Below are positions 4,051-6,082 of a stretch of DNA of 64,000 nucleotides, piece after piece (position 1 is the first letter of the stretch; each line of letters begins with the position of its first letter). The stretch is taken from positions 62,001-126,000 of the forward strand of contig NZ_FUWS01000008.1 of NCBI RefSeq assembly GCF_900167435.1, in the 5' to 3' direction. Under the pieces are notes generated by a model. It worked only from the letters and a program-made list of their open reading frames with translations, did no database searches and was not told the DNA's origin. This DNA is from Marinactinospora thermotolerans DSM 45154. Its GTDB lineage: Bacteria; Actinomycetota; Actinomycetes; Streptosporangiales; Streptosporangiaceae. A program made the translations under genes and the position numbers.

Positions 4051-4282
4051 CCGCGCGCTCCGCCTTCGGGGCGACGCGCGAGGGCGAGGGAGAGAGGTCC
4101 GGACCGGAAACGAGCTGCCCGTACCCGCCTCGCCCCTTCGCCCGGGACATCCTTCCCTCGCCCCGGCCTCCCGAGGTCTCGTTCCCCGGGAACGGGACCG
4201 GCGGCACGCGCCGAACCCGGGCGACGGTGTGTCGTCGGCCCTCCTAGGATGGGCCGACGCCGCGTCGACGAGGAGGAACCCC

Positions 4283-5284
4283 GTGGCCCCCGCTTCCACC
4301 GCCCCGGCCGAGGTCCGCGCCCACCAGGCCCTGGAGGAGACCCGGCAGGGGTTCCCCGCGTTCCGTGAACGCTTCGAAGGGGACTGGGGGATGACGCCCC
4401 CCGAGTCCCTCCGGGAGTTCTGGGCCTTCCTGCGCTCCCTGGGGCCCGCGGACCGGCAGGCGCTCGCGGACCTGGACCTCGCCCCCTACGGTGTCGCCGA
4501 CCTGTTGGAGGAGCCCGGCCGGCCGACCCGGGACGGAATCGACGTGCGCGTGCACGGGCGCTACTACCGCGACCCGCCGGAGTTCGTCACCTTCCTGCAC
4601 GGCGGTAGCGACGGGCTGCACTTCGGCCTGTGGTTCGACGACGGCCGGACCTGCGCGGGAGTGGCCGGATACCACACCGACGACGGCGACGGGGTCGGCG
4701 TCCCCCAGGGGACACCGCTGGAGGTGGTGCGCGCCCACCTGGAGGGATCCTGGCGCGACCTCCTCGACGAGGAGAGGGCCGGCGCGCCCGTCGACGAACG
4801 GCGGAACCGGCTGCGCGGACTGCGGGCCCTCCTCGTGGCCTTCGGCGTGGGCGACCCCGGCCACGAGGGGGTGGACTACCTTCGGACGCTCCCCGCCGCG
4901 CGGCCGCTCCCCGAGCGGGTCATGACCCTGGACGGGGGCGGCGCCCTCCTCCCTCGGGGAGCGGTCCCGCCACGCGGTCCGCAGGAAGGGGCGGAGGACC
5001 ACCACTGGTACACCCGCGTCTACGAGGAACTGACCGGCGACCCCGAGGCCGTGACCGCGGCGGCGGCCGAGGCGGTCCGCCGCTGCGCGGCGGGCGACCC
5101 CGCCCAGGCGCTCGTGTTGGGACGCGACCTGCACTGGGTCTCGCAGGGCGACCCCCTCCGCGAGCGCCTGGCGGCCGAGCTGCTCGTCGCGGCCTACCGC
5201 GCCCTCGGCCGTCCCGCGCTGGCCGGGATCGTCCAGGCGCACCGGGACCATCGCGACCTGCCCCAGGTCACGGTGCTGCGCTGA
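4283..5284 (+). CDS. HPF1-like (DUF2228) protein
   Basis: A 333-residue cytoplasmic protein that resembles eukaryotic HPF1, the accessory factor that redirects PARP1 to serine ADP-ribosylation. Features recalled from HPF1 recur in the same order: an FWAFLRSLGP segment near residue 46, a PYGVADLL segment near 68, RYYRDPPEF near 93-101 (HPF1 has FYYDPPEF), and a C-terminal LVLGRDL motif followed by a helical tail ending IVQAHRDHRD. The residue aligned with the HPF1 catalytic glutamate seems not to be acidic. The start is GTG 4283, six bases after AGGAGG. No PARP-like gene is visible in the window. The family assignment is from memory of motifs, not from a search; a SUKH/SMI1 relative is the main alternative. 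Confidence 0.7.
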   Translation: MAPASTAPAEVRAHQALEETRQGFPAFRERFEGDWGMTPPESLREFWAFLRSLGPADRQALADLDLAPYGVADLLEEPGRPTRDGIDVRVHGRYYRDPPEFVTFLHGGSDGLHFGLWFDDGRTCAGVAGYHTDDGDGVGVPQGTPLEVVRAHLEGSWRDLLDEERAGAPVDERRNRLRGLRALLVAFGVGDPGHEGVDYLRTLPAARPLPERVMTLDGGGALLPRGAVPPRGPQEGAEDHHWYTRVYEELTGDPEAVTAAAAEAVRRCAAGDPAQALVLGRDLHWVSQGDPLRERLAAELLVAAYRALGRPALAGIVQAHRDHRDLPQVTVLR

Positions 5285-5323: not shown

Positions 5324-6082
5324 TCAAGGACGCGCGGTCCCCGGCAGGTCCCGCGCCGCGGCGCGGTCCACCAGGAACAACGTGCGCTCGCGGCCGCGTA
5401 CGGCGGCCGCGGGCACTTCCCCGGCCCCGCCCAGCGCGAGGCCGACCGCCTCGGCCTTGCTCTCTCCCGAGGCCAGCGCCCACACCTCACGGGCCGCGGC
5501 GATGGCCGGCAGGGTCAACGAGATCCGGGTGGGGGGCGGCTTGGGAGCGTCGTGGACGGCCACCACGGTGCGCTCCCGCTCCTTCATCGCCGGCAGCCCC
5601 GGGAAGAGCGAGGCGACGTGGGCGTCCGGGCCGACCCCGAGCAGGCAGACGTCGAAGGACGGAACCGTCCCGCCGGCCTCCGCCCGGGCGCGCAGCTCTG
5701 CCGCGTAGCGGAGCGCGCCCGCCGCGGGATCGTCCCCGTCCGGCCCGTCGGGGGCGGGCATCGGGTGCACGCGCCCGGGATCGAGGTCGATGTGGTCGAG
5801 CAGCGCCGCCCGCGCCCCGGTCTCGTTGCGCTCGGCGTCCCCGGTGGGAAGGAAGCGCTCGTCCCCCCACCACACGTCGACCCGCCGCCAGTCGACGGCG
5901 TCGCGCGCCGGCGTACGCGCCAGCGCGGCGAGCACGGCCGTGCCGATGCCGCCTCCGGTCAGCACGATCGACGCCGAGCCGCGTGCCGCCTGGGCCTCGG
6001 TCAGCCGCGTCACGATCCGCGCCGCCGTGGCGGCGGCGAGCAGGTCGGCGTCGGCGTGCAGGATCACCTCGGCGTCGCTCAC
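5324..6082 (-). CDS. pgl: 6-phosphogluconolactonase
   Basis: Hydrolyses 6-phosphogluconolactone to 6-phosphogluconate in the oxidative pentose phosphate pathway. The 252-residue protein shows the family features LTGGGIG near residue 40, WWGDERFLP near 75, NETGARAAL, and LLGVGPDAHVASLFPG, which carries the conserved general-base region. The start is GTG 6082, overlapping the opcA stop as GTGA. It is the last gene of the tkt-tal-pgi-zwf-opcA-pgl group and converges with the HPF1-like gene 39 bases away. Confidence 0.95.
   Translation of the reverse strand: MSDAEVILHADADLLAAATAARIVTRLTEAQAARGSASIVLTGGGIGTAVLAALARTPARDAVDWRRVDVWWGDERFLPTGDAERNETGARAALLDHIDLDPGRVHPMPAPDGPDGDDPAAGALRYAAELRARAEAGGTVPSFDVCLLGVGPDAHVASLFPGLPAMKERERTVVAVHDAPKPPPTRISLTLPAIAAAREVWALASGESKAEAVGLALGGAGEVPAAAVRGRERTLFLVDRAAARDLPGTARP

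Follow-up and report, generated by a model that had tools for sequence, protein, structure and literature searches.

In animals, HPF1 assists PARP enzymes in marking damaged sites on DNA. What does a protein of the HPF1 family do in a bacterium whose genome shows no PARP for it to assist? The question is raised by a gene of Marinactinospora thermotolerans DSM 45154, located in the stretch of 64,000 nucleotides of contig NZ_FUWS01000008.1 that was analyzed here as a whole (the window). A sequence-only reading of the window had described the product as a bacterial HPF1-like protein encoded by a stand-alone gene with no PARP nearby, and had asked whether its fold is ancestral or was transferred.

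The gene and its relation to HPF1

The gene limits given in Table 1 are exactly those chosen by a codon-based gene caller. The open reading frame, this gene call and a GC3 of 0.93 exclude a frame or strand artefact. One flank carries a LacI regulator alongside a divergent ABC transporter set (an ATPase and two permeases), and the other carries convergent pentose-phosphate genes for 6-phosphogluconolactonase, OpcA and G6PD, so that the description of a stand-alone gene without a nearby PARP is borne out. The last position of the LacI gene is 4050, and on the other side a gene of the opposite strand ends at 5324, so the HPF1-like gene is most likely transcribed alone.

Table 1. Positions in the window of the HPF1-like gene and of features within or next to it
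Feature	Position	Strand	Basis
Shine-Dalgarno-like GAGGAGG, 6 nt ahead of the GTG start	4270..4276	+	read from the sequence
HPF1-like gene, 333 aa, GTG start, stop included	4283..5284	+	PF10228, PDB HPF1 matches, AF2 model
N-terminal domain (about residues 24-159), SMI1/KNR4-like fold	4352..4759	+	3d5p_A, Z 5.5
HGRYYRDPPEF motif, residues 91-101, core of the polar cluster (Arg93, Asp97, Glu100)	4553..4585	+	39-row and 57-row alignments
LHFGLWFDD, residues 112-120, invariant His113, Gly115, Asp119	4616..4642	+	39 of 39 proteins
Ala269-Ala270, at the position of human Asp283-Glu284	5087..5092	+	alignment of the 39-protein profile with Nematostella HPF1; MAFFT with the human and Nematostella sequences
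GDPAQALVLGRDL, residues 271-283, helical-core motif adjoining the missing acids	5093..5131	+	alignment, 39 of 39 proteins

The four landmarks from which the resemblance to HPF1 had been read are present in order, namely FWAF (residues 46-49), PYG (68-70), YYRDPPEF (94-101) and LVLGRDL (277-283). A search with the Pfam model of HPF1, PF10228, as that reading had proposed, gave 31.5 bits against a cut-off of 27.1 (E 1.9e-7), and no other Pfam family was matched by the protein up to E 10. NCBIfam held no family for it, and 39 relatives gave scattered single matches only. Among PDB sequences searched with phmmer, Nematostella HPF1 was matched at 9.5e-12 and human and mouse HPF1 at 1.4e-9 to 6.4e-8. 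In the phmmer rows shown, the significance came from an N-terminal stretch, and a colinear C-terminal stretch was weak alone (i-Evalue 1.6 for Nematostella HPF1 and 87-88 for human HPF1). A profile of 39 bacterial proteins matched six HPF1 sequences of solved structures at E 2.9e-29 to 9.7e-25 in one nearly full-length stretch that begins at profile position 10-19 and ends at 312-316. All 39 bacterial relatives in the alignment matched PF10228 at E <= 1.

The AlphaFold (AF2) model of the protein (pLDDT 91.7, pTM 0.90) has the whole two-domain fold in common with animal HPF1 (histone PARylation factor 1, C4orf27; PF10228; PDB 6m3g, 6m3i, 6tx2, 6tvh). All nine Foldseek matches with E <= 0.001 were HPF1 chains, with moderate TM-scores (0.61-0.65 by query length, rmsd about 6-7 Å). 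In the fold comparison the nine HPF1 rows reached Z 19.4-26.0 over 222-283 residues, at an identity of about 20%. The comparison with human HPF1 that had been suggested gave, for the chain of the HPF1/PARP1 complex (6m3i_A), Z 26.0 over 283 residues at 3.0 Å. The best fold other than HPF1 was the SMI1/KNR4 structure 3d5p_A (Z 5.5; residues 18-159; 111 residues at 3.7 Å), and yeast Knr4 aligned weakly with the N-terminal domain (Z 4.0-4.1). SMI1/KNR4 as the better match, an outcome that the sequence-only reading had allowed for, was rejected, with no Pfam SMI1/KNR4 match up to E 10, PF10228 above its cut-off, and the Z of 5.5 to be set against 19.4-26.0 for HPF1. The likeness to SMI1/KNR4 (SUKH) is thus a weak one in the fold of the N-terminal domain, whereas the C-terminal helical domain is extra. 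Because SMI1/KNR4 is nevertheless the best other fold, the N-terminal domain of HPF1 may, on the strength of this model, be weakly SUKH-like. The C-terminal helices of the window protein (residues about 291-325) bear a weak likeness to alkylsulfatase, seen in SdsA1 rows at Z 4.4-4.5. Alkyl_sulf_dimr gave one Pfam match, at 0.16, and short profile matches fell in frames of 646-808 aa.

Chance similarity of motifs was ruled out by phmmer, the 39-protein profile and the fold comparison. We regard homology of the window protein to HPF1 as practically certain. Its identity as an HPF1 homologue is secure, as the sequence-only reading had it; its mechanism is what we infer below.

An old and patchy bacterial branch

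A scan of named genome contigs found relatives at 54 loci, mostly in Streptomyces, Nonomuraea, Actinomadura, Actinoplanes and their kin, and also in Ktedonobacteria and an Anaerolineae MAG (Chloroflexota) and in three Myxococcota. A profile search of the window's family, with at most 7 candidates scored per genome, matched 20 of 297 genomes, 13 of them strongly and 7 by short weak matches (profile 278-316). Two of 201 Chloroflexota genomes were matched, one of them (G955) weakly and over a short stretch. When 396 genomes of the phylum were searched with the single sequence, a less sensitive query than the profile, only the genome of the window itself was matched. The plasmid collection gave no match to the HPF1-like gene, and the 47 pattern matches among viral contigs included no relative. 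The bacterial HPF1 family is old and patchy, extending over Actinomycetota, Chloroflexota and Myxococcota, and the window protein is a full-length member of this branch of the HPF1 structural family (PF10228). Since the family name exists already, the bacterial protein is a variant of a named family; InterPro may list bacterial members of PF10228 already. Among the papers listed by a literature search that covered mainly open-access work, none was on a bacterial HPF1 by its title or the start of its abstract.

Two alignments were used below. Of the 54 loci, 16 are absent from the 39-row alignment (L014, L016, L018, L020, L023, L024, L027, L028, L032, L033, L045, L046, L048, L049, L053 and L056), and the 57-row set restores 14 of these and adds L066, L067, L068 and L072. 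The two loci not restored have internal stops, two in L024 (the same gene as L003, Actinomadura sp. HBU206391) and one in L032 (Nonomuraea sp. NEAU-A123), and both genes are probably broken copies.

The trees were unrooted and held two eukaryotic rows, and no conclusion on origin was drawn from either. With all 57 bacterial rows included, L072 joined the two animal HPF1s (99/96), a placement that the program flags as long branches meeting. L072 is a second, divergent HPF1-like copy in a Ktedonobacter genome (G577, contig C8) that also carries L035. Without L036, L066, L067, L068 and L072, the animal HPF1s stood alone on a branch of 2.37. Of the two origins offered by the sequence-only reading, a transferred or an ancestral fold, the first, if taken as a recent acquisition from a eukaryote, has this long separating branch and the depth of the bacterial family against it. 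In both trees the Anaerolineae MAG and Enhygromyxa cluster inside a clade otherwise composed mostly of Micromonosporaceae, and this nesting suggests that the gene was transferred between phyla.

Immediate neighbours were compared for 82 of the 95 that were called, leaving out 13 that were too long, very short or doubtful; at L034, L035, L042 and L055 the codon-based caller placed no gene at the locus. There was no recurrent neighbour, the commonest Pfam family occurring in 3 of the 82, and no toxin family was found among the 25 of 119 neighbour families listed. Defence models gave at most 2 matches among the neighbours. BLAST clusters of neighbours beyond the HPF1-like gene and its shadow frames covered at most 8 loci at scattered positions; three larger clusters coincided in position with the HPF1-like gene but lay on the opposite strand. 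AlkA/Ada-type alkylation-repair proteins were seen as 2 of the 82 neighbours.

These neighbourhoods bear on the idea that the protein is an SMI1/KNR4-type immunity or anti-toxin protein, whose SUKH-like N-terminal domain would neutralise a toxin. The alignment of that domain with a bacterial SMI1/KNR4 structure and with yeast Knr4 is in its favour, and the patchy spread over phyla would fit a mobile gene. However, a Z of 5.5 is weak and goes with no Pfam SMI1/KNR4 match, the loci show neither a repeated partner gene nor a listed toxin, and the helical second domain is as conserved as the first. We hold an immunity function to be quite improbable.

PARP-facing residues and the conserved core

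In the excerpts of PMC7884425 used here, Glu284 of human HPF1 is the catalytic residue for serine, the E284A substitution abolishes histone modification, and Phe268, Phe280, Cys285 and Lys307 are further interface residues. An excerpt of PMC8634249 describes Asp283 as a PARP contact on which PARP binding depends, and Tyr238-Arg239 is said, in an excerpt of PMC4858568, to occur in all HPF1 orthologues. Where animal HPF1 has Asp283-Glu284, the window protein has Ala-Ala. Its residues at the columns of Phe268, Phe280, Cys285 and Lys307 (Ala262, a gap, Gly271 and Glu294) do not match either. Three of these positions differ in Nematostella HPF1 as well, where 268, 285 and 307 are Ser, Gly and Asn, and the fourth, Phe280, lies opposite a gap in the alignment. 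The position of Glu284 is acidic in 7 of the 57 bacterial proteins (2 Glu, 5 Asp) and that of Asp283 in 6, with acids at both in only two proteins, L066 and L067, both from Myxococcota. Positions 238 and 239 belong to a poorly aligning loop; Arg occupies the Arg239 column in 9/57, and the residues seen most often at 238 do not include Tyr. Judged from the aligned residues, then, the bacterial branch does not keep the catalytic Glu284 and the PARP-contacting Asp283. The acid pairs of L066 and L067 are Asp-Asp and Glu-Asp, and a PARP match is absent from both genomes.

Because Ala269-Ala270 replace Asp283-Glu284, and the bacterial family does not in general have acids there, we do not expect the chemistry by which HPF1 assists PARP; the window protein is very probably not a catalytic cofactor of the HPF1 type. 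The genomes agree with the residues. Animal HPF1 has a PARP partner, whereas in the genome of the window protein the whole-genome search that had been proposed found no match to PF00644, the PARP catalytic domain, at E <= 0.01, and PF01885 and PF10021 (microbial PARG) are absent as well. PF00644 was matched at E <= 0.01 in 3 of 54 carrier genomes and over the cut-off in only one, that of Enhygromyxa salina. The PARP found there is a protein of 577 aa (L061, 400-2133, + strand; 62.3 bits) with a sub-threshold WGR match, encoded on a contig other than that of the HPF1-like gene. Among 188 Myxococcota genomes, a sample centred on G598, which was chosen for carrying the HPF1-like gene, and from which both counts were drawn, the gene occurred in 4 and a PARP in 3. 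As the only overlap is G598, the centre of the sample, PARP and the HPF1-like gene do not travel together. The bacterial HPF1 branch usually lives without a PARP. Thus, of the notion of an HPF1 merely short of its PARP, the missing PARP stands, but the acids with which it would assist one are missing too, and the window protein probably does something other than assist a PARP.

Could it instead reshape the active site of a non-PARP ADP-ribosyltransferase, as HPF1 does that of PARP1, without supplying the glutamate? The same full-length fold would allow it. PF10021 occurs in 39 of 54 carrier genomes, whereas the window's family has it in 45 of 150. This enrichment could hint at a link to ADP-ribosylation; we give it little weight because the carriers are large genomes of other taxa, a comparison unmatched for genome size and taxon, and because the genome of the window itself is without a PARG. 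That genome has two ADP_ribosyl_GH genes, but 5 of 14 control genomes were matched also. With the catalytic acids gone and none of PF00644, PF10021 and PF01885 found (the first and the last being the ADP-ribosyltransferase families covered), we consider a cofactor of this kind unlikely.

What the bacterial proteins do keep lies elsewhere. Residues 93, 97 and 100 of the window protein are identical in all 39 proteins, and at positions 93, 97, 98, 100 and 101 both animal HPF1s and at least 53 of the 57 bacterial rows have the same residue. His113, Gly115 and Asp119 correspond to human His128, Gly130 and Asp134. In the helical-core motif G271, P273, L277, G280 and L283 are found in 39/39, and L291, G294 and L297 of human HPF1 have their counterparts there. 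DPxEF, H.G...D and L..G..L...LL..AY are motifs common to bacterial proteins and animal HPF1. Altogether, 25 positions are identical in both animal HPF1s and at least 52 of the 57 bacterial proteins. They include a polar set in the N-terminal domain (human Arg107, Asp111, Glu114, Thr117, His128 and Asp134) and a helical set (human Leu291, Gly294, Leu297, Leu312, Leu313, Ala316, Tyr317, Leu320, Arg322, Ala326, His332 and Arg336). Positions 238, 239, 283 and 284 are all absent from this core.

Over the 39 bacterial proteins 26 columns are invariant, which argues for selection on the family. It also argues against a true HPF1 orthologue that has recently lost its PARP, or a remnant drifting to loss. 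Some copies are indeed broken, as the stops in L024 and L032 indicate, but the acids are missing in nearly all copies, those of distant phyla included, and nearly all carriers are without a PARP. We regard such a recent loss as extremely unlikely.

Fusions to a NusG-type KOW domain and a proposed role

In contrast to animal HPF1, some bacterial relatives are fused to a KOW domain. One open frame holds KOW and the HPF1-like domain at 7 of the 54 loci (L009, L013, L014, L016, L017, L032 and L034) and also in L066 of the Myxococcota, which makes 8 relatives in three phyla. The order is an N-terminal KOW domain, a middle helical segment and the HPF1-like domain. Of the 8 fusions detected by the KOW model, 7 had gone into building it, L032 being its only independent match, and the independent support for the fusions comes from Pfam and structure comparison. 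Pfam KOW exceeded its cut-off of 22.3 in three of five proteins scanned (L009, 23.0; L032, 25.4; L066, 22.4) and fell under it in L016 (17.9) and L034 (15.2). The L016 model, made from 10 sequences, has a pLDDT of 65.2 and an unreliable HPF1 part, and only its first ~50 residues were used. Predicted residues 1-53 of L016 align best with NusG, that of T. maritima giving Z 7.7, 1.6 Å and 39% identity, although Z values below 8 may reflect no more than a common arrangement. Identity of the predicted N-terminus is 46-48% to E. coli NusG and 50% to the KOW domain of Rho-bound NusG (6duq), and in the rows shown it spans 35-50% for the C-terminal KOW domain of bacterial NusG. The five KOW-bearing proteins scanned had no Pfam match to the NusG N-terminal domain; the long forms instead join KOW to the middle helical segment and the HPF1-like domain. 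For L016, L017 and L032 the start sites chosen by the codon-based caller lie within the KOW stretch or beyond it.

In L034 (Ktedonospora) the middle segment is recognizably similar to that of the actinobacterial long forms (8.8e-8, where the best of 1000 shuffled controls gave 6.3e-4). That of L066 shows no resemblance to the actinobacterial long forms, so the KOW fusion may have arisen more than once. A different N-terminal extension is found in L037, L038, L042 and L057. The window protein is without KOW (no match in the open frame at E 1e-3 and none by Pfam), without the middle segment and without any other N-terminal extension. As this holds for KOW in most relatives too, the link to NusG rests on a minority of the family.

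The reading that we prefer is that the window protein is a binding adaptor, for which we put the chances slightly above even. Homology to HPF1 and a non-catalytic adaptor role, taken together, we judge an even bet. In such a mechanism, the SMI1/KNR4-like N-terminal domain would recognise a partner through the cluster of Arg93, Asp97, Glu100, His113 and Asp119, and the C-terminal helical domain would present or hold it. The C-terminal domain of NusG docks on ribosomal protein S10, Rho or RNA polymerase. In the long forms, the NusG-type KOW domain would bring the HPF1-like module to such a docking site, so that the module would exert its effect on, or in the course of, transcription or translation. 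The short form of the window would have lost the KOW domain or never had it, and would work as a protein on its own, binding the partner that the long forms bind. The KOW fusions suggest that the partner, or the site of action, lies in the transcription or translation machinery, a link that we offer tentatively and think rather less than probable. More speculative, and in our estimate doubtful, is the idea that HPF1 originated in bacteria as an adaptor that needed no PARP and was connected to transcription or translation by a NusG-type KOW domain, and that animals, having inherited or acquired this module, gave it only afterwards the Asp-Glu pair by which it became half of the PARP active site.

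Serine ADP-ribosylation should not be concluded from a bacterial match to PF10228. A bacterial branch that lacks both PARPs and the catalytic glutamate separates the purpose of the HPF1 fold from the use that PARP makes of it, and the KOW fusions offer a concrete first partner to test. The branch also draws attention to conserved residues that lie away from the PARP interface in human HPF1. If the reading of a bacterial origin is true, Arg107, Asp111, Glu114, His128, Asp134, His332 and Arg336 would mark an unexplored, older binding site in the human protein.
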